Below, in pieces: positions 10,216 to 38,160 of a stretch of DNA of 39,954 nt. The position numbers were made by a program, and so were the translations under genes. The first letter of the stretch is position 1. Each line of letters starts with the position of its first letter. Source of the DNA: Marmoricola sp. (GTDB lineage: Bacteria; Actinomycetota; Actinomycetes; Propionibacteriales; Nocardioidaceae); contig JAOPXD010000054.1 of NCBI GenBank assembly GCA_025965315.1, positions 1 to 39,954 on the forward strand, given 5' to 3'. The notes below the pieces were generated by a model, which had not been told where the DNA came from, did no database searches, and saw only the letters and a program-made list of their open reading frames with translations.

Positions 10216-11715
10216 CTAGGGCTGCTTGGCCTGCTGCTTGATCCGCATGGTGAGCTCGTTGACCGTCTTGTACGTCGTCTGGCGCTCGGCCAGGTCCTTG
10301 CGGATCCGGCGCTCGGCGTTCATCACCGTGGTGTGGTCACGACCGCCGAACTGCTGGCCGATCTTCGGCAGCGAGAGATCGGTGAGCTCACGGCACAGGT
10401 ACATCGCGATCTGACGAGCCGTCACCAGGGCACGGGTCCGGCTCGGTCCGCACAGGTCCTCGATGCTGAACGAGTGGTACGACGCGGTCTGGGCGATGAT
10501 CAGGCCGGCGGTGACCTGCGGCTCTCCGCCTTCGGGGATGAGGTCCTTGAGCACGATCTCGGCCAGGGTCATGTCGACTTCCTGGTGGTTGATGCTCGCG
10601 AAGGCGGTGACCCGGATCAAGGCACCCTCGAGCTCGCGGATGTTCGTCTGGATCCGGCTGGCGATGAACTCGAGCACGTCGGCCGGCGCGTGCAGCCGGT
10701 CGGCAGCGGCCTTCTTGCGGAGGATCGCGATCCTGGTCTCCAGGTCGGGCGGCTGTACGTCGGTCAGCAGGCCCCACTCGAAACGGTTGCGCAGCCGGTC
10801 CTCGAGCTGGGTGAGGCGCTTCGGCGGCCGGTCCGAGCTGATCACGATCTGCTTGTTCGCGTTGTGCAGCGTGTTGAACGAGTGGAAGAACTCTTCCTGC
10901 GTCTGCTGCTTGCCCTCGAGGAACAGGATGTCGTCGATCAGCAGGACGTCGACGTCGCGGTACCGGCGCTGGAGCTCGGAGGTGTTCGCGTCCTTGATCG
11001 CGTTGATGACGTCGTTCGTGAACGCCTCGGACGAGACGTACCGGATCTTGGCGCCGGTGTAGAGGCTGCGGACGTAGTGGCCGATCGCGTGCAGCAGGTG
11101 CGTCTTGCCCAGGCCCGAGTCGCCGTAGACGACCAACGGGTTGTAGGCCTTGCCCGGTGCTTCGGCGACAGCGACGGCGGCTGCGTGCGCGAACCGGTTC
11201 GAGGATCCGATGACGAAGGTCTCGAACGTGTACCGCGGGTTGAGCGGACTGTCCGGGATGCCAGTGGACAGGGAATTACCGCCCTGGATATTTGTCGACA
11301 AAGAACCTTGTGGATTGAACGATGAAAGGTTTTGCGGTGCGTAGCTGAGCGTCCCGGACGGCGTGAAGGGTGCCTCGGCGGCCGGCGGCGGCGGAGCGGT
11401 CTGGGTGAGCGTGGGCACATCGGCGATCAGCCCGCCCAGGGGGAAGTCGCCCGGGGACAGGGTCTCGTCGACGCTGACCGCGATCCGGATCGGCCTGTTC
11501 AGGCTGTCGCTGAGGGCGTCCTCGAGCCGGGTTCGTAGTCGTCCCTCGAGCTGGGTGCGGGTGAACTCGTTCGGTACGGCGATGACGGCCGTCGACTCGG
11601 CGAGCATCACCGGCTTGCTCGAGGCGAGCCAGACGCGCTGGTTCGGGGCGAGGCTGTCCAGGATGGCGGGCCACAACGCGTCAAGCTCTCGACCGTTGCC
11701 TGCAGGTGACTCCAC
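10216..11715 (-). CDS. dnaA: Chromosomal replication initiator DnaA
   Basis: DnaA binds origin boxes, opens the duplex and recruits the helicase. With GTG at 11715 it has 499 residues. Domain I aligns from [11 protein letters not shown] with the N-terminal region of actinobacterial DnaA, followed by a linker rich in Asn, Ser and Pro. Domain III has Walker [16 protein letters not shown], Walker [13 protein letters not shown] and the segment [20 protein letters not shown]. Domain IV has the DNA-binding motif [21 protein letters not shown] lies 12 bases before the GTG, a little far; GTG at 11805 is an in-frame alternative but lacks a well-spaced binding site. The gene is transcribed toward the origin. 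Confidence 0.98.
11291..11302. repeat. 12-bp perfect palindrome TTTGTCGACAAA inside dnaA
   Basis: TTTGTCGACAAA is a perfect palindrome in the AT-rich part of dnaA encoding the domain II linker. Its core is one mismatch from the DnaA box TTGTCCACA. The 11-mer TGTCGACAAAG found here (11293-11303) recurs at 12517-12527 and 17390-17400. Confidence 0.5.
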
Positions 11716-11809
11716 GTGCGCTTCGCGCTCCCCTCGTTCGGACGTCCTGCGCGCCTGGCTGGCGTTGGTGGTTGCGTCTGGGTTGATCTGGTTGGTCCGA
11801 TCCACACCT

Positions 11810-11818
11810 TTGTCCACA
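11810..11818 (+). promoter_or_regulatory. Perfect DnaA box in the dnaA leader
   Basis: TTGTCCACA lies downstream of the candidate dnaA promoter, between it and the start codon, where bound DnaA could block transcription. Confidence 0.75.
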
Positions 11819-11890
11819 GGTTGTGCAGGGTGCGCGAGGCGCACTTCCGTGCTCGAGCTGCAGCGTGTACACGAGTGGGCCGGTGAGCGG

Positions 11891-11920
11891 ACGCTAACAA
11901 CACAGGGCACGTTGGATCAA
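11891..11920 (-). promoter_or_regulatory. dnaA promoter
   Basis: Minus strand: -35 hexamer TTGATC (11920-11915), an 18-base spacer, and -10 hexamer TAGCGT (11896-11891), a good match to actinobacterial housekeeping promoters. The leader to the GTG start is about 170 bases. Confidence 0.6.
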
Positions 11921-11924
11921 CCGG

Positions 11925-11933
11925 TTGTCCACA
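11925..11933 (+). promoter_or_regulatory. Perfect DnaA box beside the dnaA -35 hexamer
   Basis: TTGTCCACA ends five bases from the -35 hexamer of the candidate dnaA promoter. This placement suits autoregulation by DnaA. Confidence 0.75.
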
Positions 11934-12031
11934 GGTTCGAGTGATTCGTCGGCGTGTCGCCATGATTATGGTGAGCTGAGGGTGCAGGCTCGTTTCTTTT
12001 GGCCTCCCGTGGTCGTTCGGTGCGGTTCGAA

Positions 12032-12061
12032 TTGACCGTGAACCGGCCTCACACGTACCGT
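12032..12061 (+). promoter_or_regulatory. rpmH-rnpA promoter
   Basis: -35 hexamer TTGACC (12032-12037), an 18-base spacer and -10 hexamer TACCGT (12056-12061) on the plus strand. This is the best housekeeping-type promoter seen upstream of rpmH. Confidence 0.6.
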
Positions 12062-12186
12062 TGGCAGGTCGAAACCGGTTCGACCGGTGCCGCATGTCCA
12101 CGACCGGGCCCTGCCAGGGTCCATCGCGCGGGCAGGCGGTGCCAGTTGTGACTCTGACTGGCGGCGTTCTGCGTCGTGCGACCCGG

Positions 12187-12195
12187 TGTGGACAC
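12187..12195 (-). promoter_or_regulatory. Near-perfect DnaA box in the rpmH leader
   Basis: TGTGGACAC is one mismatch from the reverse DnaA box TGTGGACAA. It lies about 60 bases before rpmH. Confidence 0.5.
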
Positions 12196-12253
12196 GTCCC
12201 ACAGAGCCGTTCCCAACACAGGCATTCCCCAACAGAAGCGCGTGGAGATTTTC

Positions 12254-12391
12254 ATGAGCAAGCGTACTTACCAGCCGAACAACCGCCGTCGTCACAAGGT
12301 GCACGGGTTCCGTCTTCGGATGCGTACCCGCGCCGGGCGCGCGATCCTGTCCAGCCGTCGCCGCAAGGGCCGCAACAGCCTCGCCGTCTGA
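12254..12391 (+). CDS. rpmH: 50S ribosomal protein L34
   Basis: This 45-residue, strongly basic protein matches L34 throughout: [19 protein letters not shown] at the N-terminus and [19 protein letters not shown] thereafter. L34 binds 23S rRNA in the large subunit. The ATG at 12254 has GGAG seven bases upstream; the open frame runs further upstream to 12176 but that part is unrelated to L34. The gene directly precedes rnpA, the near-universal arrangement next to dnaA. Confidence 0.98.
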
Positions 12392-12397
12392 GGCCGC

Positions 12398-12748
12398 TTG
12401 CTGGATGTGCTGTCCTCAAGCAATCGCCTGACCGCTGCCGACGAGTTCCGGCAGACGGTCCGTCGGGGTCGCCGATCTGGCGGCCCGCTGATGGTCGTAC
12501 ATCTAGTGGTGCCGAATGTCGACAAAGCGACAAGTGAACCCTCTCGTGTGGGGTTCGTCGTCGCCAAGTCGGTCGGCCCGGCCGTGACGCGGAATCGCGT
12601 GAAGCGACGCCTACGCCATCTGATGCGGGAGCGGATCGACCAGCTCCCGGGCGGGAGCATGCTCGTCGTACGGGCGCTCCCGGATTCAGCCAGTGCCTCC
12701 TTCGGGGATCTTGCCGGGGCTCTCGATCGTTGTCTGGGTCGGGCATGA
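12398..12748 (+). CDS. rnpA: Ribonuclease P protein component
   Basis: RnpA binds the RNase P RNA and helps it cut 5' leaders from pre-tRNAs. The protein of 116 residues (from TTG at 12398) has the signature RNR motif in [15 protein letters not shown], the N-terminal NRLTAADEF(R) segment and the central [12 protein letters not shown] at 12398 has GAGG four bases upstream. GTG at 12407 gives MLSSSNRL, closer to the usual N-terminus, so the true start may be three codons later. It ends just before yidD. Confidence 0.96.
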
Positions 12749-12776
12749 GCACGGCCACGGGGACGGAGGGTCAGGG

Positions 12777-13052
12777 ATGAAGTGGATCCTGATCGCCCTC
12801 CTCAGGGCCTACCGCTTCGCCATCAGCCCGCTCTACGGTCAGGTGTGCCGTTACCACCCGACCTGTTCGGCGTACGCGCTCGAGGCCGTGACGGTCCACG
12901 GGGCGTTCAAGGGAAGCTGGCTCGCTGCACGCCGGGTCGGCCGGTGCCACCCCTGGGCCGCCGGCGGGTACGACCCGGTGCCGTCCAAGCCTTCCCAGCC
13001 TCAATCTTCCCAGCAGCTGCTGGGCCATGTGAACACGACTCAAGGAGTCTGA
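12777..13052 (+). CDS. yidD: Membrane protein insertion efficiency factor YidD
   Basis: This 91-residue protein has the YidD (formerly DUF37) core: an amphipathic N-terminus [18 protein letters not shown], then [15 protein letters not shown] and [18 protein letters not shown] with the conserved cysteines. YidD assists YidC-dependent insertion of membrane proteins. GGAGGG seven bases before the ATG supports this start, although the frame is open upstream. The C-terminal 20 residues are Gln- and Ser-rich and variable. yidC starts directly at its stop codon. Confidence 0.96.
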
Positions 13053-14054
13053 GTGGGTTTCCTCGGCCAGATCGGCCACTTCATCATCACGCCGCTGTAC
13101 TACCTGGTCTCGGCGGTCCTGCTCGGCTGGCACCACGTGTTCAGCCTGGTGTTCGGCTCGGCCTCGGGTGCGTCCTGGGCCTTGTCGATCGTCTTCCTGA
13201 CGCTCACGATCAGGGTCTGCCTGATCCCGCTCTTCGTGAAGCAGATCAAGTCCAGCCGGAACATGCAGCTGTTGCAGCCCAAGGTGAAGGAGCTGCAGAA
13301 GAAGTACGGCCACGACCGGGAGCGGCTGACCCAGGAGACGATGGCGCTGTACAAGGAGACTGGAACGAATCCGTTCTCCTCGTGCCTGCCGTTGATCGTG
13401 CAGATGCCGATCTTCCTGTCGCTGTTCCGGATCCTCAGCAAGGCTGCCAAGAGCCAGGGCCATGGTCTGCTGACCAAGTCCGACGCGATCGCGTTCGCCC
13501 ACGCGCCGTTCTTCGGTGGCACCCTGTCGTCGAGCTTCGTGAAGTCGGACGGTCACGAGGTCGTCAAGATCATCGCGATCTTCCTGGTGCTCGCGATGAC
13601 GCTCACGACGTTCCTGACCCAGCGTCAGCTGATGAGCAAGAACATGCCCGACGATGCACTCTCGGGCCCGTACGCGCAGCAGCAGAAGATGCTGCTGTAC
13701 GTGCTGCCGCTGGTCTTCGCCGTCGGTGGTATCGCGTTCCCGATCGGTGTCCTGATGTACTGGACGACCTCGAACCTGTGGACCATGGGCCAGCAGTTCT
13801 ACGTGATCCGCAACAACCCCGCACCGAACACGGAGGCGTTCCGCGCCAAGCAGCGCCGTGATTCCGCGAAGGGCATCGTCAAGAGCGACCCGGTCAGCGG
13901 ATCCACCGCGATTGCCGTCGAGAGCGTCGAGCAGGACCGTCGTCCGGCTCAACGTCAGCAGCCCCGGAAGCAGACGCGAGAGCAGCGTCGCGCCCAGGCC
14001 CCCAAGAACCCTTCGCCGAATGGCGACAGCATCGATCAGGGAGAAGACAGTTGA
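13053..14054 (+). CDS. yidC: Membrane protein insertase YidC (Oxa1 family)
   Basis: YidC inserts and folds inner-membrane proteins alone or with SecYEG. The 333-residue protein has the short Gram-positive-like layout without the large periplasmic domain of E. coli. The core runs from WALSIVFLTLTIRVCLIPLF, with the conserved Arg in the membrane groove, through the cytoplasmic hairpin KQIKSSRNMQLLQPKVKELQ and SSCLPLIVQMPIFLSLFRIL to the last segments near VLPLVFAVGGIAFPIGVLMYW. The C-terminal 80 residues are basic and Gln-rich, suited to ribosome contact. AAGGAG lies five bases before the GTG start; the frame abuts yidD and overlaps jag. Confidence 0.98.
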   Translation: MGFLGQIGHFIITPLYYLVSAVLLGWHHVFSLVFGSASGASWALSIVFLTLTIRVCLIPLFVKQIKSSRNMQLLQPKVKELQKKYGHDRERLTQETMALYKETGTNPFSSCLPLIVQMPIFLSLFRILSKAAKSQGHGLLTKSDAIAFAHAPFFGGTLSSSFVKSDGHEVVKIIAIFLVLAMTLTTFLTQRQLMSKNMPDDALSGPYAQQQKMLLYVLPLVFAVGGIAFPIGVLMYWTTSNLWTMGQQFYVIRNNPAPNTEAFRAKQRRDSAKGIVKSDPVSGSTAIAVESVEQDRRPAQRQQPRKQTREQRRAQAPKNPSPNGDSIDQGEDS

Positions 14055-23795: not shown

Positions 23796-24484
23796 CGTGC
23801 CGCTCCTCTCGCGGGTGTCGGGTCCAGGGGGTCTCGGGAATGGGACGTCTCCGAGGCGCCCGCGGTTCCGGTGACCTCGGTCTCACCCCGGTCCCCGGTG
23901 CGCTGATCAGCCAGGAGCTCGGCCAGGCGGCGGCGGCCGCGGGCGCACCGGCTCTTCACGGTTCCGGTCGGACAGCCGAGGATCCGGCCGACCTCCTCGA
24001 CGGGGTACCCCTCCATGTCGACCAGCACCAGAGCTGCCTTCTGGTCGGCCGGCAGGGCGTTCAGCGCAGCCAGGACGCGGGCGCGCTGGTCCGCGTCGAG
24101 GGCCGCCTTCTCCGGGTCGTCGGGCTCGCTGGCCGAGGCGACCACGGCGCCGCGACCGGCGTACTCCTCGAGGTCGTCGGGCAACGGCTGGGCGGCCCGG
24201 ACCTTGTTGCGGCGCAGCCGGTCGAGGCTGGCGTTGACGACGATCCGGTGCAGCCAGGTCGTCACCTGGGCGTCACCGCGGAAGCTGCCGAGACGCTGGT
24301 ACGCCGAGATCATCGCCTCCTGCAGGGCATCCGCGGCGTCCTCGGGATTCCCGGTGGTACGCAGCGCGACCGCCCACAGCCGGTCCCGGTGCCGGGTGAA
24401 GAGCACCCCGAACGCGGCGGGATCGCCGTCGCCGTGGGCCAGGACGAGGGCCTGGTCGTCGAGCTCGGACAGCGAGCCGGTCAC
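23792..24484 (-). CDS. sigM: ECF RNA polymerase sigma factor (SigM type)
   Basis: This 230-residue sigma factor has region 2 (about residues 25-90; GNPEDAADALQEAMISAYQ and TWLHRIVVNASLDRLRR) and region 4 (about 145-195; LPADQKAALVLVDMEGYPVE then VGRILGCPTGTVKSRCARG). It should redirect RNA polymerase to envelope or redox stress genes. The GTG start overlaps the pseudokinase stop (GTGA). The frame is open far upstream, but only this start gives a normal length. The last 30 residues are an extra Thr/Ser/Asp tail. In M. tuberculosis sigM lies at the same place. Confidence 0.92.
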   Translation of the reverse strand: MTGSLSELDDQALVLAHGDGDPAAFGVLFTRHRDRLWAVALRTTGNPEDAADALQEAMISAYQRLGSFRGDAQVTTWLHRIVVNASLDRLRRNKVRAAQPLPDDLEEYAGRGAVVASASEPDDPEKAALDADQRARVLAALNALPADQKAALVLVDMEGYPVEEVGRILGCPTGTVKSRCARGRRRLAELLADQRTGDRGETEVTGTAGASETSHSRDPLDPTPARGAAR

Positions 24485-26343
24485 TTCCGGACCGTGATCT
24501 CGTCGATCTCGCCGCGGTAGCCCTTCGCGAACGCCGGCAGCTTCGTCAGCCAGATCACCAGGAAGCGGGTGCGCACCGCGGGCGCGAACGGAACAACGGC
24601 CGAGGTGCCGGCGCCGGTGACCGTCTTCAGCAGGTGGGTGTCCGCCAGCTCGGTCGGGGCGTCGGTGACCCCGGGGGCGGTCGCCCAGACCTGGAGATCG
24701 GTCGGGGTCCGGCCGAGGGCGAGCTGGACCGAGGAGACCGGCTGGTCCGAACCGAGGTCGACGATCAGGCCGACGCCGCTCTTGATGCCGCCGAGGCTCG
24801 GGCTGCCGCGGTAGGTCAGGGTGTGCCATCCCGTTGCCGGGTTGCCGTCGTAGGCCCGGGACACCTCGTCGGGGTTCTCCCGGGGCGGGTTGCCCTCGGG
24901 ATCGAAGTCCGCGGCGCCGACGATCGTGATCGGTGTCCCGGTCGGGGTGGTCGCCGGTGGCGTCGAGGACGTGTCGCTCGGCGACGGGCTGGTGCTCGAT
25001 CCCGGTGCCGGTGAACCGCTCGGCGAGTCGTTGCCGCGGCCGGCGTTGAAGGCGTAGAACATCGCCACCACCACGGCGATCGCGACGGCGACGACCAGGG
25101 CGATGCGGAGCCAGCGACGACCGCCGTCGTAGTCCGGCTCGAGGTCGGGCTCGCGGTCCTCGAAGGGCCACTGGTCCGGCGCCGGGCTCGGCGGCGGGGT
25201 GGCCAACGGCCTCGGCGGAGGTTCGGCGACCGGGGGTGCGACCGGAGCGTCCGCGGGGACCCGGCGCTCGGTCTCGGCGAAGAGCGGCCGGTCCGTCGGT
25301 TGCTCGAACGGCGGTGGTGGAGCTGCCGGGGCCCAGACCTCGGGCTCGAGGAACTCGATCCCCACGGCTTCGTACGGCGGCGCCGACGCCATCGTGGCGT
25401 CCGGGTCGACCACCGCGGCCGGCGCCGGTTCCGAGTTTGGGGCAGGCGCCGTTTCGGGGGTCGGGTCGGGATCCAGGAGGTAGGAGTCGATGTCCGGCTC
25501 GGGTGGCGGCTCGGGATCCGCGTGCATGCTCGGCAGGTCCGCCGGCGCCACCGCAGCCGGGTCGCCGACGAAGTCGCTCAGGGCGGCTGCGACCTCGTAC
25601 GCGGTCTCGATCGGCATCGAGTGCGCGGACGCCTCCTTGTGCAGCACCCGGTCGCAGATCGCGTCGAGGGTGCGCGGCACGCCGGCCCGGACCTGCCGGG
25701 GCCGGAGCGGACGGTTGCCGTCACGGGGCGCCGGCGGTACCGAGGAGGGCGCGATCCCGGGCCAGCGACCCGTCAGGGCGGCGTACAGGATCCCGGCGAG
25801 GTCGACGACGTCCGCCTCGCGGGCACCGATCGGGCCGTAGGGGGACACGGCCGCCGCGGACCGTTCGAACGCGGCGTTGACCACGAACCCGATGATCCGC
25901 ACCGAGCCGGACGCGGTCACCAGCACGGCCTCCGGGTTCAGCCGGCCGTGGTGCACACCCTGGGCGTGCGCAGCGGCGATCGCCTCGGCCACCTCGCGGG
26001 TCAACCACGCCGCGCGCATCGGCGGCAGCGTCCCCCGCGCGAGCATCACGTCCAGCGAGACACCGTCGCCCCACTCGTTGATCACCCAGGTGATGCCGTC
26101 GACGTCGTCGCAGTCCAGCACCCGCAGGAAGTGCGGCTCGCTGACGCCTGCCGATCGTTGGGCGGCATCGAGAACCGCGGCTGCGCGCGGATCCGTGCTG
26201 GCAACGGCGTGCACCGCGACGCTGCGCTCCAGGACCGTGTCGGTCGCACGCCAGAAGCGGGCACCGTCCTGCTCGGAGAGGAGGTCCTCCAGGCGGTACC
26301 GCCCGCCGAGCACCGTGCCGGGAGTCATCGAGATCGGGGGCAC
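24481..26343 (-). CDS. Membrane pseudokinase with extracellular F5/8-type domain
   Basis: This 620-residue protein has a kinase-like domain (about residues 6-260), an acidic Pro-rich linker, one membrane helix (411-433, LRIALVVAVAIAVVVAMFYA), a Ser/Thr/Pro stalk and a C-terminal discoidin-like domain (about 471-620). Catalytic residues are gone: VAIK reads VAVH, HRDLKPEN reads HGRLNPEA, and DFG reads GFV. In M. tuberculosis the same domains are fused to the C-terminus of MurJ and recruit FhaA; here they are a separate gene 58 bases after murJ. GTG at 26343 follows AGGAGG closely; ATG at 26328 and ATG at 26373 are alternatives. Confidence 0.87.
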   Translation of the reverse strand: MPPISMTPGTVLGGRYRLEDLLSEQDGARFWRATDTVLERSVAVHAVASTDPRAAAVLDAAQRSAGVSEPHFLRVLDCDDVDGITWVINEWGDGVSLDVMLARGTLPPMRAAWLTREVAEAIAAAHAQGVHHGRLNPEAVLVTASGSVRIIGFVVNAAFERSAAAVSPYGPIGAREADVVDLAGILYAALTGRWPGIAPSSVPPAPRDGNRPLRPRQVRAGVPRTLDAICDRVLHKEASAHSMPIETAYEVAAALSDFVGDPAAVAPADLPSMHADPEPPPEPDIDSYLLDPDPTPETAPAPNSEPAPAAVVDPDATMASAPPYEAVGIEFLEPEVWAPAAPPPPFEQPTDRPLFAETERRVPADAPVAPPVAEPPPRPLATPPPSPAPDQWPFEDREPDLEPDYDGGRRWLRIALVVAVAIAVVVAMFYAFNAGRGNDSPSGSPAPGSSTSPSPSDTSSTPPATTPTGTPITIVGAADFDPEGNPPRENPDEVSRAYDGNPATGWHTLTYRGSPSLGGIKSGVGLIVDLGSDQPVSSVQLALGRTPTDLQVWATAPGVTDAPTELADTHLLKTVTGAGTSAVVPFAPAVRTRFLVIWLTKLPAFAKGYRGEIDEITVRK

Positions 26344-26401
26344 GTTCCTCCTCTGACGCCACGGGGCTTCCATCGTAGAGGCGCCCGCAGCGGCACGGGC
26401 G

Positions 26402-30223: not shown

Positions 30224-30282
30224 ATGCTAACGAGTCGGAGGCCGTTGCCCGTGCCGAGGCAGCGTCACCACCCCGATAGAGT
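30224..30282. promoter_or_regulatory. Divergent leaderless promoters for DUF6049-murJ operon and pcnA
   Basis: Minus strand TAGCAT (30229-30224) ends seven bases before the DUF6049 GTG. Plus strand TAGAGT (30277-30282) ends eight bases before the pcnA GTG at 30291. No ribosome binding site precedes either start. -35 elements are not clear. Confidence 0.55.
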
Positions 30283-30290
30283 TGGTTCTC

Positions 30291-31736
30291 GTGTCGTCCG
30301 AGCCCCTGAACATCTCGCAGGCCCAGGCCAGCGCGGTCGCCGAGCTGCTGCGGATCGCGCCCGTCATCGACGAGCTCGGTGCGCGGTTCGAGGCTGCCGG
30401 TGAACAGATCGCCCTGGTCGGCGGGCCGGTCCGGGACGCGATGCTCGGTCGGCTCCAGAACGACCTGGACTTCACCACCTCGGCACGACCCGAGGTGACC
30501 GAACGCCTGCTCAAGGGTTGGGCGGACGCGATCTGGGACATCGGCCGGGCCTTCGGGACGATCGGGTGCCGTCGCGGTGAGTGGCAGGTGGAGATCACCA
30601 CCTATCGCTCCGAGTCGTACGACGCGAGCAGCCGCAAGCCGGACGTCTCCTACGGCGACTCGCTGACCGGCGACCTCGGGCGCCGTGACTTCACCGTCAA
30701 CGCGATGGCGGTCACGCTTCCCGGACGTGAGTTCGAGGACCCGTACGGCGGGATCGTCGATCTCGCCGAGAAGGTGCTGCGTACCCCGGGCCGACCCGAG
30801 GACTCCTTCAGCGACGACCCGCTGCGGATGATGCGCGCGGCGCGGTTCGTCGCCCAGCTCGGCTTCACGGTCGCGCCCGAGGTCCGGGCGGCGATGACGG
30901 CGATGGCGGACCGGATCTCGATCATCTCGGCCGAACGCGTCCGCGACGAGCTGGTCAAGCTGATCTGCTCGCCGTACCCGCGCGAGGGTCTGCTGCTCCT
31001 GGTCGAGACCGGGCTGGCCGACCAGGTCCTGCCGGAGCTGCCGGCGCTGGCCCTCGAGCGCGACGAGCACCACCGGCACAAGGACGTCTACGAGCACACC
31101 CTGACCGTGCTCGAGCAGTCGATCGAGCTCGAGGACCGGCTGCCCGGGGGCGGGCCCGACTTCGTGTCCCGGTTCGCTGCGCTGATGCACGACGTCGGCA
31201 AGCCCCGCACGCGCCGGTTCGCCGACGACGGCACCGTCACGTTCCACCACCACGACGTCGTCGGCGCGAAGATCACCAAGAAGCGGATGCAGGCGCTGAA
31301 GTTCTCCAACGAGGAGATCGGCGACGTCGCGCAGCTGGTCGAGCTGCACCTGCGCTTCCACGGGTACGGCGACGGGCTCTGGACCGACTCCGCGGTACGT
31401 CGCTACGTGCGCGACGCCGGACCGCTGCTGAGCAGGTTGCACATCCTGACCCGGGCCGACTGCACCACCCGCAACCAGCGCAAGGCCGACCGGCTGCGGC
31501 GGACCTACGACGAGCTCGAGGAGCGGATCGAGCGGCTCTCGGAGCAGGAGGAGCTGGCCTCGATCCGGCCCGACCTGGACGGGAACCAGATCATGGAGAT
31601 CCTCGGGATCCCGGCCGGCCGCGAGGTGGGCGCGGCGTACGGGTTCCTGCTCGAGCTACGTCTGGACCACGGCCCGATGAGCTACGAGGACGCCAGGACC
31701 GCGCTGCTCGCCTGGTCCTCGTCCCGCGAGGGCTGA
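30291..31736 (+). CDS. pcnA: CCA tRNA nucleotidyltransferase / poly(A) polymerase family protein
   Basis: This 481-residue protein has an N-terminal nucleotidyltransferase head with LVGGPVRDAMLGR and the metal-binding DLDFTT (about residues 43-65). The conserved GRRDFTVNAMA and EDSFSDDPLRMMRAARFVAQ follow. A C-terminal HD domain contains HHRHKDVYEHTL and LMHDVGKP. Such enzymes add CCA to tRNA 3' ends; the actinobacterial gene is often called pcnA. tRNA-Ile in this window lacks an encoded CCA and would need this activity. Start GTG 30291 (VSSEPLN) is favoured by the leaderless -10 spacing; TTG at 30282 is an alternative. Confidence 0.95.
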   Translation: MSSEPLNISQAQASAVAELLRIAPVIDELGARFEAAGEQIALVGGPVRDAMLGRLQNDLDFTTSARPEVTERLLKGWADAIWDIGRAFGTIGCRRGEWQVEITTYRSESYDASSRKPDVSYGDSLTGDLGRRDFTVNAMAVTLPGREFEDPYGGIVDLAEKVLRTPGRPEDSFSDDPLRMMRAARFVAQLGFTVAPEVRAAMTAMADRISIISAERVRDELVKLICSPYPREGLLLLVETGLADQVLPELPALALERDEHHRHKDVYEHTLTVLEQSIELEDRLPGGGPDFVSRFAALMHDVGKPRTRRFADDGTVTFHHHDVVGAKITKKRMQALKFSNEEIGDVAQLVELHLRFHGYGDGLWTDSAVRRYVRDAGPLLSRLHILTRADCTTRNQRKADRLRRTYDELEERIERLSEQEELASIRPDLDGNQIMEILGIPAGREVGAAYGFLLELRLDHGPMSYEDARTALLAWSSSREG

Positions 31737-31760
31737 CCCGGAAGCTCCTCCGGCTCAGCC
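31731..31760. terminator. Bidirectional hairpin terminator between converging genes
   Basis: GGCTGACCCGGA (31731-31742) pairs with TCCGGCTCAGCC (31749-31760) with one mismatch and a six-base loop. The stem includes the stop codons of both pcnA and the convergent He_PIG gene. There is no U-tract, common in high-GC genomes. Confidence 0.7.
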
Positions 31761-34547
31761 TCCGTTGATGACCACCTTCAGCTGGAGCGTGACCTGGTCG
31801 GAGACCAGCCCGGTGCTGGTCTCGGTGAACTTGATCTTCACGTTGACCGTCGAGGGCAGCGGCGCGTTGCCGCTGATCACGCCGGTCGTGGCGCTGGCCG
31901 AGTAGCCCAGCGGCAGACCCTGGACGGTCCACTTGCCGACCACGGTGCCGACGGTGGTCAGCTGGAACGAGTACTGCTGCCCGGCCTTGCCCTGAGGCAA
32001 CGAGGTCGTGGCCACGATCGGCTTCGACTGGTTGATGTGCAGCGCCACGACCACGCTGGCCGCCTCGAGCCCGGTGCTGGTCTGGGTGAAGTCCAGCGTC
32101 ACGTTGGTGTCACCCGCCGTGTTCGGGATACCGGAGATGACGCCGGTGCTCGGGTCCAGGCTGAGCCCGGACGGGAGCGCCGAGGTCGACCAGGTACCCG
32201 CCGGGTTGCCGATCACGGCCAGCTGCGTGGAGTACGCGTGGAACCGGGTGCCGGCCGGGAGCGCCGTGGTGGCGATCACCGGGCGGGCTGCCTCGGCGAT
32301 GGTCAGCTGCAGCGTCTTCGGCGTGGCGGCCAGACCGGTGCTGGTCTGGGTGAACCCGATCACGACGTTGGTGGCGCCTGCTGCGGTCGGCGTACCGGAG
32401 ATGACGCCGGTGCTCGGGTCCAGGGTCAGGCCTGCCGGCAGCGGCGAGGCGGTCCAGGTACCGGCCGGGTTGCCGGTCGCGGTCAGCGTCGTCGTGTAGC
32501 CCACCGCGCGGGTGCCGTCCGGCAACCCGCTCGTGCTGATCACCGGTGCGGCTGCTTCGTTCACGGTCAGCTGCAGCGTCTTCGGCGTGGCGGCCAGACC
32601 GGTGCTGGTCTGGGTGAACCCGATCACGACGTTGGTGTCGCCGGTCGCGGTCGGCGTACCCGAGATGACGCCGGTGCTGGCGTTCAGGCTCAGGCCTGCC
32701 GGCAGCGGCGAGGCGGTCCAGGTACCGGCCGGGTTGCCGGTCGCGGTCAGCGTCGCGCTGTAGCCGGCCGTCAGGCGGGTGCCGTCAGGCAGGCTGCTGG
32801 TCGCGATCACCGGGGCGGCTGCCTCGGCGATGTGCAGCGGGATCGTCTTCGGCGTGGCGGCCAGACCGGTGCTGGTCTGGGTGAACCCGACCAGGACGTT
32901 GGTGTCGCCGGTCGCGGTCGGCGTACCGGAGATGACGCCGGTGCTGGCGTTCAGGCTCAGGCCTGCCGGCAGCGGCGAGGCGGTCCAGGTACCGGCCGGG
33001 CCACCGACGGCAGTCAGCGTCGCGCTGTAGCCGGCGGTCAGGCGGGTGCCGTCGGGCAGGCTGCTGGTCGCGATCACCGGAGCGTCGGAGTTCCCGATCC
33101 GCAGGGTCAGCGTCTTCGGGTCCGCGGACACACCGGTGTCGGTCTGGGTGAACCCGATCACGACGTTGGTGTCACCGGTCGCCGTCGGCGTACCCGAGAT
33201 GACGCCGGTGCCGGCGTCCAGGCTCAGGCCTGCCGGCAGCGGTGCGGCCGTCCAGGTACCGGCGGGGCTGCCGGTGGCGGTGAGCGTGGTGGTGTAGCTG
33301 CTGCCGACCTGGCCGGTGGGCAGCGAGGTGGTGCTGATCACCGGGGCGCCGGCCTGGTTGACCTGCAGGGTGAAGGTCTTCTGCGCGGCTGCCAGTCCGG
33401 TACCGGTCTCGGTGAACCCGACGACCACGTTGGTGTTGCCGGTGGCGGTCGGCGTACCGGAGATGACGCCGGTGGTGCTGTTCAGGCTCAGGCCTGCCGG
33501 CAGCGGGGTCGCGGTCCAGGTACCGGCCGGGTTGCCGGTGGCGGTCAGGGTGGTGCTGTACGCGGCGGTCACCTGGCCGGCGGGCAGCGAGGTCGTGCTG
33601 ATCACCGGTGCCGAGGTCTGGTTGACCCGCAGCGTGTACGTCTTCGACGCCGCCTTGAGGCCGGTGCCCTTCTGGGTGAACCCGACGACGACGTTGGAGT
33701 CGCCGGTCGTGGTGGGCGTGCCGGAGATGACCCCGGTGGTCGCGTTGATGCTCAGGCCCGCCGGCAGCGGTGCGGCGGTCCAGGTGCCGACCATCGAGCC
33801 GACCGTGGTCAGGTGCGCGGTGTACGGCGCGAAACGGGTGCCGTTGGGAAGAGTGAGGGTGCTGATCGACGGCTTGGCCACGACGATCTTGCTGGGGGTG
33901 GTGGCAGGGGCGTTGCTACCGGCGCGCGGGACCGAGACCCGGTACGTCGTGGTGACGCTCAGCGCGACGGCCTTGCTGTAGGTGCCGTTGGCGGCGAGCT
34001 TCGCGGTGGTCTGGGTCGTCCAGCCCGAGCCGTTCCAGTGCTGGACCGAGACGACGGTGTTCTTCACGAACGGGTAGACCGCACCAGCGAGCGTGGTGCT
34101 GGTTCCGGCGGTCACGGTGGTCGGCGTCGCGGTCAGCGAGGCGAAGGCCTTGGTCAGCACGGCGATCGAGATCGTCCGCGAGGTGGCTGCCTTCAGCGAG
34201 CCCTTCTTCGCTGCGAAGGCCCGGTACGCGTACGTGCCGCGGGTACCGGACACGGTGATCTTGGCCGAGTAGGCGCCGCCGGCCGAGGTGGTCTTGACCG
34301 CCTTCGCCTTGACCCAGGACTTGCCGCTCTTGCGCTGGATGACCACCGCGCTGCCCTTCGGCGACCTGGTGAGCTTGCCGGAGAAGGTGATCGAGCCCTT
34401 CGGGGCCACAGCGGTGGCCGAGGCGCCGATGCTCAGGCTGCGGCCGGTGGCCGCCGACGCGGCTCCAGGCAGTCCTGTGATCACCAGGAGGGCGGCGAGC
34501 AGTGCTGCCACCAGAGCGGAAGCGGTCCGGAAGGGGTGCACGAACAT
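31755..34547 (-). CDS. Secreted protein with eight putative-Ig (He_PIG) repeats
   Basis: This 930-residue protein has a signal peptide (about residues 1-32, ALVAALLAALLVITG then GAASAA). Two N-terminal beta-sandwich units (about 35-130 and 131-225) follow. Eight He_PIG-type repeats of 87-89 residues begin at about 226, 314, 402, 490, 579, 668, 756 and 843. Each repeat has a PVIATTSLP opening, GTWTASPLPAGLS and TGVISGTPTATG. There is no cysteine and no visible cell-wall anchor or membrane tail, so it is probably released or held non-covalently. The N-terminal half is paralogous to the upstream gene at 34646. Such repeats often occur in surface and adhesive proteins; the role here is unknown. 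Confidence 0.85.
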   Translation of the reverse strand: MFVHPFRTASALVAALLAALLVITGLPGAASAATGRSLSIGASATAVAPKGSITFSGKLTRSPKGSAVVIQRKSGKSWVKAKAVKTTSAGGAYSAKITVSGTRGTYAYRAFAAKKGSLKAATSRTISIAVLTKAFASLTATPTTVTAGTSTTLAGAVYPFVKNTVVSVQHWNGSGWTTQTTAKLAANGTYSKAVALSVTTTYRVSVPRAGSNAPATTPSKIVVAKPSISTLTLPNGTRFAPYTAHLTTVGSMVGTWTAAPLPAGLSINATTGVISGTPTTTGDSNVVVGFTQKGTGLKAASKTYTLRVNQTSAPVISTTSLPAGQVTAAYSTTLTATGNPAGTWTATPLPAGLSLNSTTGVISGTPTATGNTNVVVGFTETGTGLAAAQKTFTLQVNQAGAPVISTTSLPTGQVGSSYTTTLTATGSPAGTWTAAPLPAGLSLDAGTGVISGTPTATGDTNVVIGFTQTDTGVSADPKTLTLRIGNSDAPVIATSSLPDGTRLTAGYSATLTAVGGPAGTWTASPLPAGLSLNASTGVISGTPTATGDTNVLVGFTQTSTGLAATPKTIPLHIAEAAAPVIATSSLPDGTRLTAGYSATLTATGNPAGTWTASPLPAGLSLNASTGVISGTPTATGDTNVVIGFTQTSTGLAATPKTLQLTVNEAAAPVISTSGLPDGTRAVGYTTTLTATGNPAGTWTASPLPAGLTLDPSTGVISGTPTAAGATNVVIGFTQTSTGLAATPKTLQLTIAEAARPVIATTALPAGTRFHAYSTQLAVIGNPAGTWSTSALPSGLSLDPSTGVISGIPNTAGDTNVTLDFTQTSTGLEAASVVVALHINQSKPIVATTSLPQGKAGQQYSFQLTTVGTVVGKWTVQGLPLGYSASATTGVISGNAPLPSTVNVKIKFTETSTGLVSDQVTLQLKVVINGG
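31758..33872 (-). repeat. Tandem 264-267-bp coding repeats (eight units)
   Basis: Eight units encode the He_PIG domains. Units 4 and 5 (about 33080-32814 and 32813-32547) are nearly identical in DNA over long stretches, for example around 32601-32815 compared with 32868-33082. This points to recent duplication or gene conversion. Outer units are more divergent. Confidence 0.85.
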
Positions 34548-34645
34548 ACGAATCAGCCTCGGGTACGCGAAGTGGCAACTGGGGTGGAATCTTCAGCGTA
34601 GGCCAGCGATGCGACCTGCGCGGACAAAACAGTCACGAACGGCGA

Positions 34646-37519
34646 TCAGCCGACGACGGCGGTCGGGGTCAGCTCCATCGGCACCGCCGCCGGGGTGCTG
34701 TTGATCCCCAGCTGACCACCGTCGTTGGAGCCCCAGCACCAGACCCCGCCATCGGTCTTGACGGCACAGGTGTGGCTGCCACCGACGGAGACCGAGGTCC
34801 AGTCGGTGTCGGACCCGACCTCGACCGGGGTGCTGCGGGTGACCTGGGTGCCGTCGCCGACCTGGCCGTGGCCGTTCTCGCCCCAGCACCAGACCTCACC
34901 GGTCAGCTTCGTCGCGCAGGCGTGCCCGGTCGAGCCGGTGCCGCCGGTGCTGATCGAGCTCCAGTCCGTGTCGGTGCCCACCTTGGTCGGGACGAGCGCG
35001 TCGGTGGTGCTGTCGTTGACGGTGGTCCCGTTGGCGAGCTCGCCGCCGTTGCTCGGTCCCCAGCACCACGCGGTGCCGTCGACCTTGGTCGCGCAGCTGA
35101 AGCCGTAGCCCTGGGACACCGTCGCCCAGCTGTTGTCGGCGCCGACCTGGGTGGGCGTGCCCACGTCCGAGGTGCCGCCGTTGCCGAGCTGGCCGCGGCC
35201 GCCGAAGCCCCAGCACCACATCGTGCCGGTCGCCTTGACGGCACAGGTCCCGGTGTAGCCGGCCGAGACGCTCTCCCAGTCCGAGTCGGTGCCGACCTCG
35301 AGCGGGAGCGGGACGTCGGCGGACGGGGCCGGGGTGATCCCGAGCTCACCGAACGACGGATCGCCCCAGCAGTACAGCGCGCCTGCCGTGGTGATCCCGC
35401 AGGTGTGCGAGAACCCCGCGGAGATCGACTCCCACGTGCGGCCGCCGGCGACCACGGTCGGTGAGGTGGTGGTCGCGGCTCCGGTGCCGAGCTCGCCGTC
35501 GCCGTCGTAGCCCCAGCAGTACGCCGCGCCGCTGGTACGGATCCCGCACGCGAACGCGTGCCCGGGAAGGCTGGTGCCACTGGCCGAGATCGCGATCCAG
35601 TCGGTGGCCGTGCCGACCTTGGCCGGCTTGTTCACCGTGGTCCCGAAGGTGAGCGGACCACCCTGGCCGAGCTCGCCGCTGTCCTGGGCGCCCCAGCACC
35701 ACAGCGTCTGGTCGCTCTTGACCCGGCACCCGAACCGGCCGCCGCCGTCGTACAGGGCTGCGGTGGTGGAGCCGTTGGCGGCGACGACGTGCAGGGCGAG
35801 CTGGACCGTGGTCGCTGCGGTCCCGGTGCTGGTCTGGGTGAACCCGACCGTGATCACCTTGTCGACCACCGCTGCCGGGAGGACGTCGCTGATCACTCCG
35901 GTGCTCGCGTTGAGCTTGAACCCGGTGGGCAGTCCGGCGGCGGTCCAGGTTCCTGCCGGAGCCCCGGTGGTGGAGACCATCAGCTGGGCCGAGTACGGCG
36001 TCAGCAGCTTGCCGATCGGCAGTGACGTCGTCCGGATCACCGGAGGCGGCGGCGGGTTCACGTGCAGGCCGAGGTTCTTGGTGGCGGCTGCGACTCCGGT
36101 GGCGGTCTCGGTGAAGCCGACCACGACCGGGGTGTCGCCGCTTGCGGTCGGGGTACCCGAGATGACACCGGTGGCTGCGGCCAGGCTCAGGCCTGCGGGC
36201 AGCGGCGCGGCGGTCCAGGTACCGGCCGGGTTGCCGGTCGCGGTCAGGGTCGTGGAGTACGCCACGCCGACCTGGCCGGCGGGAAGGCTGCTGGTGGTGA
36301 TCACCGGCGCCGGCGGCAGCCCGACGTGCAGGCTGAGGGTCTTGCCGGGCGCGGACAACCCGGTGCTGGTCTGGGTGAAGCCGACCACGACCGGGGTGTC
36401 GCCGCTTGCGGTCGGGGTACCCGAGATGACGCCGGTGGCTGCGGCCAGGCTCAGGCCGGCAGGCAGCGGGGTCGCGGTCCAGGTGCCGGCCGGGTGACCG
36501 GTGGCGGCGAGCGTGGTCGAGTAGGCCATGCCACGGGTGCCGTCGGGCAGCGAGGTCGTACTGATCACCGGCGCGACGGGCGCGGTGATCTTGAGCTCGT
36601 ACTGGACCGAGGACGCCTTGTAGTGCGTGCTGGTCTGGGTGAAGCCGACGGTGACCAGGAAGGTTCCCTGCGCCGTCGGGGTGCCGGAGATGACGCCGGT
36701 GGTCGGGTTGATCCCCAGGCCACCGGGCAGCGGGGTCGCGGTCCAGGTACCGGCCGGGTTCGTGAGCGCCGACACCTTCGCCGAGTACGCCAACCCGGTG
36801 CTGCCGTTGGGCAGCACGGCGGTGGTGATCAGCGGCTTGGAGGTGACCACCCGGCCGGCGGAGACAGCGGCGGCCTTGGTCCCGTTGCGCGGCACGGTGA
36901 CCCGGTAGATGGTCGTCACGACCGGCTGGATCTGCTTGGTCCAGGCGCCGTGGCTGTCGAGGCCGGCGCTCGTGACGGTCTGCCAGGACGTGCCGACCTG
37001 CTTCTGGACGGTGACGATGCCGAAGGCGACGAACGGGTGCACCGTGCCCGACAGCGTGGTCTTCCTCGTCGTTGCGACCGTGGTCGGGGAGGCCTTGATG
37101 GTCGCGGTGACCTTGGTCAGCACGAGCACCTTGACGGTCTTGCTGGTCGCTGCCTTCAGCGCGCCCTTCGCGGCGGCGAACGCCCGGAACGAGTACGTCC
37201 CGGTCTTGGCCGGGAGCGTCACCTTGGCGGCGTACTTGCCGGCCGCGGTGGTCGTCGTCGCGGACTTCGCGGTGACCCACGAGGCGCCGCTCTTGCGCTG
37301 GATCGTGACGTGGCTCCCGGTCGGCGACTTCGACAACGTCCCCGAGATCGTGACTGCCGACTTGGTCGCGCCGGTCTTCGGGGCCGAGATGCTCAGCGCG
37401 CGGGTGGTCGCCGCCTGGCTCGCCGGGGCGAGGGCGCCGACGAGCAGCAGCGCCGCGACGAGGCCGATCAGCAGCCGGACGAGTCCGTGCCGGTGTGCGT
37501 GCCTGCGGGTGAGAGTCAC
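34646..37519 (-). CDS. Secreted protein with He_PIG repeats and a seven-blade RCC1-like propeller
   Basis: This 957-residue protein has a basic signal peptide (about residues 1-37, LVRLLIGLVAALLLVGAL then ASQAA). Two N-terminal beta-sandwich units (about 40-228) resemble those of the downstream paralogue. Four He_PIG repeats start at about 229, 317, 405 and 493. From about 585 to 950 there are seven RCC1-like repeats with WCWG and GELG/GQLG motifs. Every repeat has a C-X9-C pair (598/608, 658/668, 707/717, 759/769, 809/819, 868/878, 918/928), suggesting one disulfide per blade. No anchor is visible. AAGGGA eight bases before the GTG supports the start. Ligand and function are unknown. Confidence 0.85.
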   Translation of the reverse strand: MTLTRRHAHRHGLVRLLIGLVAALLLVGALAPASQAATTRALSISAPKTGATKSAVTISGTLSKSPTGSHVTIQRKSGASWVTAKSATTTTAAGKYAAKVTLPAKTGTYSFRAFAAAKGALKAATSKTVKVLVLTKVTATIKASPTTVATTRKTTLSGTVHPFVAFGIVTVQKQVGTSWQTVTSAGLDSHGAWTKQIQPVVTTIYRVTVPRNGTKAAAVSAGRVVTSKPLITTAVLPNGSTGLAYSAKVSALTNPAGTWTATPLPGGLGINPTTGVISGTPTAQGTFLVTVGFTQTSTHYKASSVQYELKITAPVAPVISTTSLPDGTRGMAYSTTLAATGHPAGTWTATPLPAGLSLAAATGVISGTPTASGDTPVVVGFTQTSTGLSAPGKTLSLHVGLPPAPVITTSSLPAGQVGVAYSTTLTATGNPAGTWTAAPLPAGLSLAAATGVISGTPTASGDTPVVVGFTETATGVAAATKNLGLHVNPPPPPVIRTTSLPIGKLLTPYSAQLMVSTTGAPAGTWTAAGLPTGFKLNASTGVISDVLPAAVVDKVITVGFTQTSTGTAATTVQLALHVVAANGSTTAALYDGGGRFGCRVKSDQTLWCWGAQDSGELGQGGPLTFGTTVNKPAKVGTATDWIAISASGTSLPGHAFACGIRTSGAAYCWGYDGDGELGTGAATTTSPTVVAGGRTWESISAGFSHTCGITTAGALYCWGDPSFGELGITPAPSADVPLPLEVGTDSDWESVSAGYTGTCAVKATGTMWCWGFGGRGQLGNGGTSDVGTPTQVGADNSWATVSQGYGFSCATKVDGTAWCWGPSNGGELANGTTVNDSTTDALVPTKVGTDTDWSSISTGGTGSTGHACATKLTGEVWCWGENGHGQVGDGTQVTRSTPVEVGSDTDWTSVSVGGSHTCAVKTDGGVWCWGSNDGGQLGINSTPAAVPMELTPTAVVG
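34665..35767 (-). repeat. Seven RCC1-like coding repeats
   Basis: Repeats of about 50-60 codons, each encoding a C-X9-C pair ending in CWG, form a predicted seven-bladed beta-propeller. Confidence 0.8.
35786..36835 (-). repeat. Four He_PIG coding repeats
   Basis: Units of about 264 bases. The two central ones share long identical stretches, for instance the segment encoding AGLSLAAATGVISGTPTASG. Confidence 0.8.
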
Positions 37520-37646
37520 GGTCGAAGTCCCTTGATCGATTTACGGAACCAGGCGCGAAACCCGGCGACCCAGCGTAGGACGAGCGGCGACGTAGCGGAG
37601 CCGAAACGCGTGATCAGCGCCACAGCGCCGTGCCGGCGAGCGTCGC

Positions 37647-37652
37647 TACCAT
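37647..37652 (+). promoter_or_regulatory. Candidate -10 hexamer of the SRPBCC gene
   Basis: TACCAT lies 28 bases before the ATG at 37681, giving a short leader that carries AGGAG. No -35 hexamer was assigned. Confidence 0.35.
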
Positions 37653-37680
37653 CGGCAGACCTACCTCACCAGGAGTTCGC

Positions 37681-38160
37681 ATGCCGCTCACCGACGTCGC
37701 GCCCATCTCGGCCAGCATCGACATCGACGCACCGCTGGCCACGGTCTGGGCGCTGATCTCGGACCTGCGCAACATGTCGCAGTGGAGCCCGCAGACCGCG
37801 AAGTCCTTCCTGCGCGGCGAGAACGGCCTCGGCGCCCGGTTCTTCAACGTCAACCGGATGGGCGTCCTGGTGTGGCCGACGCAGAGCAAGGTGGTCCGGT
37901 TCGACGAGCCCGGTACGGGCTCGACGGCTGAGATCGCCTGGCGCGTCAAGGAGAACTTCACGATCTGGAGCCTGCGCCTGGAGGCGACCCCGGACGGTGG
38001 CACCCGGCTGACCGAGACCCGGGAGGCGCCCCAGGGCATCTCGGACGTGTCGGTGCGGATGACCAAGGTCGCGCTCGGTGGCATCCCGAAGTTCACCGCC
38101 ACGCTGCAGTCGGACATGGGTTCGACACTCGCCAAGATCAAGGCCGCCGCGGAGAAGTAA
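37681..38160 (+). CDS. SRPBCC family protein
   Basis: This 159-residue protein has a START/Bet v1-like (SRPBCC) fold pattern. It begins with the strand ISASIDIDAPLATVWALISDLRNMSQWSP, typical of polyketide cyclase/dehydrase relatives, and ends with a long amphipathic helix (FTATLQSDMGSTLAKIKAAAEK). Members bind hydrophobic ligands or act in lipid and polyketide processes; no specific substrate can be read from the sequence. AGGAG before the ATG fixes the start. It is divergent from the propeller gene. Confidence 0.85.
   Translation: MPLTDVAPISASIDIDAPLATVWALISDLRNMSQWSPQTAKSFLRGENGLGARFFNVNRMGVLVWPTQSKVVRFDEPGTGSTAEIAWRVKENFTIWSLRLEATPDGGTRLTETREAPQGISDVSVRMTKVALGGIPKFTATLQSDMGSTLAKIKAAAEK

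Follow-up and report, generated by a model that had tools for sequence, protein, structure and literature searches.

Tandem genes for apparently exported He_PIG-repeat proteins beside pcnA in Marmoricola sp., one ending in a predicted RCC1-type propeller with a cysteine pair in every blade

BLIP-II is a secreted protein, inhibitors of its type bind class A beta-lactamase tightly, and the staphylococcal adhesin SraP possesses a serine-rich region as well as a wall anchor. Eukaryotic RCC1 acts as exchange factor for Ran, binding Ran and nucleosomes in the nucleus. For the plant CR4 receptors, the part of PMC4617170 devoted to their repeats counts seven of these, each with the conserved motif C(X~10)CWG, and holds disulfides stabilizing the extracellular propeller to be likely, and the regularly spaced cysteines are described there as absent from the BLIP-II and RCC1 templates. 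In bee-associated Bifidobacterium, passages of PMC4449606 count 7–24 RCC1-repeat genes per genome, mostly arranged in tandem clusters and encoding LPxTG motifs and about seven repeats per domain, which evolve by duplication and divergence. An RCC1 protein is also mentioned among the vesicle proteins of Myxococcus xanthus in a section of PMC4158809, whereas PMC3482391 was discarded as a source on RCC1, its sole RCC1 match being the name of a virus.

The window analyzed here, i.e., the whole stretch of 39,954 nucleotides from Marmoricola sp., carries two adjacent open reading frames, A and B, exactly where an earlier note on this DNA had placed them (Table 1). As proposed there, both gene products start with a candidate signal peptide (basic start, hydrophobic core and AXA-type site, read by eye) and have the N-terminal pair and the subsequent repeats in common, with identities of 51% in the pair and 61% in the first two He_PIG repeats. 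The repeat numbers of eight in A and four in B were reproduced by Pfam with all families above the curated cut-off, the He_PIG (PF05345) scores being 190.3 bits for A and 72.7 bits for B at a cut-off of 24. Besides the four He_PIG repeats, B gives seven RCC1 and six RCC1_2 stretches, with an RCC1 score of 148.7 bits versus a cut-off of 21.7, while no family scored above cut-off in the NCBIfam scan of A and B. As domains, orthologues and predicted fold agree, chance or a coding artefact is ruled out. Repeats 4–6 of A share 85–91% DNA identity. Mutual homogenization of A and B is unsupported, their N-terminal regions falling on opposite sides of one branch (support 49/86; 47% of bootstrap trees). 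Elsewhere in the same genome lies another He_PIG gene whose product resembles them in its N-terminal part (L031, G000:C188, matches at 11241–13706).

Table 1. Genes and protein parts at the pcnA site of the window (residue ranges refer to the respective protein).
Feature	Position	Strand	Basis
Gene B, He_PIG/RCC1 protein, 957 aa, GTG start	34646..37519	-	ORF and Pfam
B signal peptide, about residues 1–36, basic start, hydrophobic core, ASQA|A site	37412..37519	-	by eye; aligned with relatives
B N-terminal beta-sandwich pair, about residues 37–228, common to A	36836..37411	-	alignment and model
B four He_PIG Ig-like repeats, about residues 229–580	35780..36835	-	Pfam and model
B seven-blade RCC1 propeller, residues 585–957, seven C-X9-C pairs	34649..35767	-	Pfam, AF2 and fold match
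Gene A, He_PIG protein, 930 aa, without propeller, without cysteine	31755..34547	-	ORF and Pfam
A signal peptide, about residues 1–32, ASA|A	34452..34547	-	by eye
A N-terminal beta-sandwich pair, about residues 33–225	33873..34451	-	alignment to B (model for B only)
A eight He_PIG repeats	31767..33872	-	Pfam
pcnA, poly(A) polymerase/CCA-adding family, convergent with A, stop codons 18 bp apart	30282..31736	+	
Flanking SRPBCC/polyketide-cyclase-type gene	37630..38160	+	

The seven-blade RCC1-like propeller postulated for the C-terminal part of B was borne out by Pfam, by structure prediction, which the earlier note had suggested as a check, and by fold matching. The AF2 model of residues 571–957, calculated with 31 aligned sequences, reached a pLDDT of 92.3 and a pTM of 0.90 and consists of 28 strands with one three-residue helix. 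Its best Foldseek match is UVR8 (E 2.5e-33, TM 0.84/0.88), with VIA-align giving a Z of 53.8 and an rmsd of 2.3 over 351 residues. HERC2, HERC1, RPGR and RCC1 rank below UVR8 among the solved folds, and lower matches were obtained with BLIP-II (Z 27.5–27.7) and the plant proteins CR4 (Z 25.7) and ACR4 (Z 25.0). Across four B orthologues the propeller is about 50% identical, with the blade core conserved at 93% (both cysteines) and 100% (tryptophan and glycine), while offsets 21–33 after the first cysteine are only 14–50% identical when counted irrespective of differing blade lengths.

With the bacterial RCC1/RCC1_2 proteins (PF00415, PF13540) B shares sequence family and fold, many members of these families also showing the same cysteine pair and CWG, but B adds the N-terminal sandwich pair and the He_PIG repeats, the latter being joined to propellers elsewhere in the family Nocardioidaceae as well. 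The ectodomain of plant CRINKLY4/ACR4 (PDB 7a0j, 7a0k) is likewise an extracellular seven-repeat RCC1-like propeller with a cysteine pair and CWG per repeat, and the cysteine-pair rule in bacterial propellers parallels this plant ectodomain, the spacing given in the repeat description of PMC4617170 being C(X~10)CWG versus C-X9-CWG in B. However, CR4 possesses TNFR-like, transmembrane and kinase parts that B lacks, and the folds match only at Z 25–26. The Pfam scan of B revealed no kinase after the propeller, just past which the protein ends. A special kinship to plant CR4 was also dismissed, as two bacterial sequences match UVR8 and HERC2 far better (best ACR4 E 3.1e-9). Like the bee-gut Bifidobacterium surface proteins, as far as they are portrayed in the cited passages, A and B are actinobacterial and encoded in tandem, with about seven repeats per propeller domain, a repeat domain preceding the propeller and gene turnover, whereas the LPxTG anchors, the Flg_new repeats and the two to four propellers per protein described there are not found in A or B. 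BLIP-II (PDB 1jtd, 3qhy) also has an RCC1-type propeller and binds a protein, but its solved chain is without Ig-like stalk, it is less similar to B and, according to the template comparison in PMC4617170, it is devoid of the paired cysteines. The beads of SraP (PDB 4m00, 4m03) match the profile of the He_PIG stalk; unlike B, the ligand-binding region of SraP includes no RCC1 propeller.

The hint in the earlier note that such a propeller would be unusual in bacteria did not hold, as cysteine-paired RCC1 propellers are widespread and a plant counterpart is in print, in the CR4 part of PMC4617170. Rarity of the cysteine form is ruled out by homology searches in the family, in Actinomycetota and in wider contigs together with the blade survey described below; paired propellers were found in Nocardioidaceae, other Actinomycetota, Myxococcota, Chloroflexota and more. 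Relatives of the B propeller occur in 73 of 197 genomes of the family, and PF00415 in 58 of 396 Actinomycetota genomes. The genome-contig scan yielded 90 relatives among 103 candidate stretches, 80 of which were kept, from Myxococcales, Chloroflexi, Deltaproteobacteria, Gammaproteobacteria, Actinomycetota, Gemmatimonadota and others; the scan employed cysteine- and tryptophan-containing peptide patterns, inflating the share of paired proteins. B belongs to a broad group of bacterial propellers with paired cysteines, in which it is ordinary, and is not a new kind. Among the best open-access matches, no paper on the bacterial C-X9-C form was found by title and start of abstract, which does not show the form to be unpublished. 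Of the 147 proteins surveyed, nine combine the propeller with He_PIG-like repeats, i.e., B, three from the genus and five from a second genus of the family (g2; L190, L191, L196–L198), in which the combination of He_PIG and RCC1 thus recurs. A tenth such protein is the relative from congener G005, the full open reading frame of which has three repeats (a truncated copy is in the 147-protein set). Three proteins from Thermoflexus and Roseiflexaceae (L095, L087 and L092) show 25 C-X9-C matches each, probably corresponding to several propellers per chain.

In agreement with the earlier note, all 14 cysteines of B reside in seven C-X9-C pairs (598/608, 658/668, 707/717, 759/769, 809/819, 868/878 and 918/928). 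A is free of cysteine. When 14 cysteines were randomly placed in 387 residues, at least four such pairs resulted in 9 of 20,000 trials, which is a weak null model as blades arise by duplication. In 7/7 blades of the model the cysteines are on consecutive strands, with the pair centre at most 0.5 residue away from the hairpin centre. For surveying the pairing, a blade profile with the cysteines masked was run on the open reading frames of the collected loci, excluding loci from the window itself. Among 1,192 scored blades from 147 non-redundant proteins (B of the window included), 1,028 carry the pair, 160 lack both residues and four retain only one, although blades within one protein are not independent and a few of the retained Chloroflexota proteins share identical blades. 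The survey omitted 90 of 1,384 aligned blades with gapped cysteine columns; from 172 proteins, 11 were removed due to redundancy and 14 because fewer than four of their blades were scored. The spacing is nine residues in 944 of the 1,028 paired blades, and paired blades occur side by side with blades devoid of the two cysteines in nine of the 147 proteins, among them the B relative of congener G020 with six paired blades and one unpaired. The genus and family sets had been found by similarity to a paired query, and only the Actinomycetota set chosen by PF00415 alone (best-scoring loci) is free of this bias; the 26 proteins of the latter split into 12 all-paired and 14 all-unpaired ones, and none of their 186 blades is one-sided. 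Within the genus, eight of 13 proteins with at least four blades are all-paired, one is mixed and four are unpaired. As these four do without any pair and unpaired RCC1 proteins also look exported, a protein of this type does not depend on the pairs. Strand register and joint presence or absence support a single cysteine pair in each blade that behaves as a unit, and this nearly complete coupling over 1,192 blades provides a simple, testable rule for many bacterial propellers of unknown function.

Judged from sequence pattern and model, a disulfide within each blade would best explain why the cysteines behave as a unit, the joint absence of both residues fitting a bond within the blade. A two-thiolate metal or redox site would also be compatible with cysteines present or absent together, and the blade consensus often shows a histidine two positions ahead of the first cysteine, together with a turn aspartate. 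This histidine, however, is found in only three of the seven B blades and also in the cysteine-free blades of UVR8, hence it does not go with the cysteines, and the plant version is modeled as disulfides in the pertinent part of PMC4617170, making metal or redox sites very improbable. Oxidative folding in Actinobacteria is treated in print, e.g., in PMC9974433. In the genome of Marmoricola sp. one VKOR gene was detected (E 8.1e-26), the same search being positive in three of 14 control genomes, including that of Corynebacterium glutamicum. On the basis of VKOR presence and the signal peptides, A and B are apparently exported, and the signal peptide argues against a role like that of eukaryotic RCC1. 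Cysteine pairs as such could not be established as a mark of exported proteins, since a hydrophobic stretch precedes the first blade in 76 of 82 paired and 12 of 14 unpaired complete proteins, as obtained with a permissive rule (a hydrophobic run of 11 residues anywhere ahead of the first blade suffices; first possible start codon) after excluding 27 N-truncated ones from 123 proteins; of the six paired proteins missed by this rule, three start at the first blade or within it.

Residues 1–600 of B were modeled as a string of beta-sandwiches (pLDDT 84.5, pTM 0.48), for which Foldseek gave multi-Ig chains such as titin as best, albeit loose, matches (TM 0.27), with SraP among the matches; the profile of the same residues matches SraP at E 1.7e-13. 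Protein anatomy and this profile match fit the stalk-plus-head idea of the earlier note, and a putative binding head on an Ig-like stalk is probably the role of the B propeller. The motif search revealed no sortase-type wall anchor, with LPxTG, hydrophobic stretch and basic tail, at the C-termini of A and B, the only sortase-like motifs of B being internal; a surface rather than a released form of B is therefore not supported. That the propeller might instead be a secreted inhibitor or antagonist of a competitor's enzyme in the manner of BLIP-II, with the Ig-like part as a mere spacer, would be in line with the common fold type, a profile match at E 1.9e-16 and the source of BLIP-II being a Streptomyces (stated in the template passage of PMC4617170), but this profile match is far weaker (63 bits) than that to UVR8 (239 bits) and no beta-lactamase is among the scanned flanking genes (pcnA, SRPBCC-type, PALP, DUF6049 and one without Pfam match), so that such a function appears unlikely. 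Slightly less unlikely are A and B as structural matrix or envelope-spacer proteins with the propeller as a sturdy cap lacking a specific ligand, considering the headless genes without propeller gene at the sites of G013, G011 and, as far as its contig reaches before ending inside the cluster, G019, as well as the headless protein of 2,112 aa encoded by G020. The combination of about 50% identity, near-invariant core and variable stretches in between is what would be expected of a binding scaffold, yet this is a weak counterargument, as a cap would keep its core too and core conservation does not distinguish between the two.

With the propeller as binding head, A and B would be exported by their signal peptides, each forming a flexible rod of Ig-like beads that starts with the N-terminal pair and continues with the He_PIG repeats. 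At the far end of B, opposite to an end presumably facing the cell, the seven-blade RCC1-type propeller would have every blade braced by one disulfide between neighboring strands, formed outside the cytoplasm via a VKOR-type oxidative folding route. Its fixed core and the more variable stretches between blades would make up the binding head, with A as a headless paralogue, and the locus may gain and lose such genes and repeats through duplication and recombination.

The placement of A and B in the origin region, as given in the earlier note, is corroborated by gyrA, gyrB, dnaA and a gene for a RecF/SMC-type protein within the window. The accompanying claim that the pair interrupts otherwise conserved genes stood only in part. 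It agrees with short gaps between pcnA and its neighbor in four congeners, as deduced from tblastn matches: in G006 a PALP (ACC-deaminase-like) match begins 30 bp past that of pcnA, and in G008, G023 and G001 an SRPBCC match begins after 75–206 bp. However, in 5/20 informative congeners (G016, G012, G004, G003 and G018) neither neighbor was matched by tblastn in the stretch examined, so the neighborhood is not fixed in the genus. Among 24 genomes of the genus, including the one that bears the window, 22 have pcnA; of the 21 relatives possessing it, G015 ends within the gene, leaving 20 informative congeners. In six of these, genes like A or B are present beside pcnA: G017 has B and A, G013 has A without B, G020 has B plus two headless genes, G005 has B, and both G011 and G019 have headless genes, the G019 contig ending inside the cluster. 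The pcnA site near dnaA is thus a variable insertion site for headed and headless He_PIG genes in the genus.

G017 and G013 encode A proteins with 95–96% identity in the parts compared. Between both genomes, strong identity on the A side begins just past the stop codon of B, and on the SRPBCC side it extends over about 70 bp; B was therefore gained or lost as a unit. For A of these two close relatives, dN/dS is 0.27 compared to 0.006 for pcnA, indicating fast evolution, while positive selection on A was not seen at this value from one pair. The locus adds another case to the rapidly changing actinobacterial genes that encode exported repeat proteins. It is decidedly doubtful whether the site might even be a diversity-generating recognition locus, in which headed and headless He_PIG paralogues would be gained, lost and recombined among closely related genomes and a disulfide-locked scaffold with specificity-changing variable stretches would serve kin, surface or phage recognition. 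Elsewhere in the origin region, two open reading frames on the minus strand (24481–26373 and 12771–13952) gave no Pfam match at 1e-5, the second of which may not be a gene. In G016, an RCC1 protein with four cysteines but no C-X9-C is encoded about 13 kb from pcnA (L138, 15771–17501). The headless 2,112-aa relative in G020 comprises 18 repeat motifs and is encoded beside pcnA on the minus strand (L028, 6352–12690).
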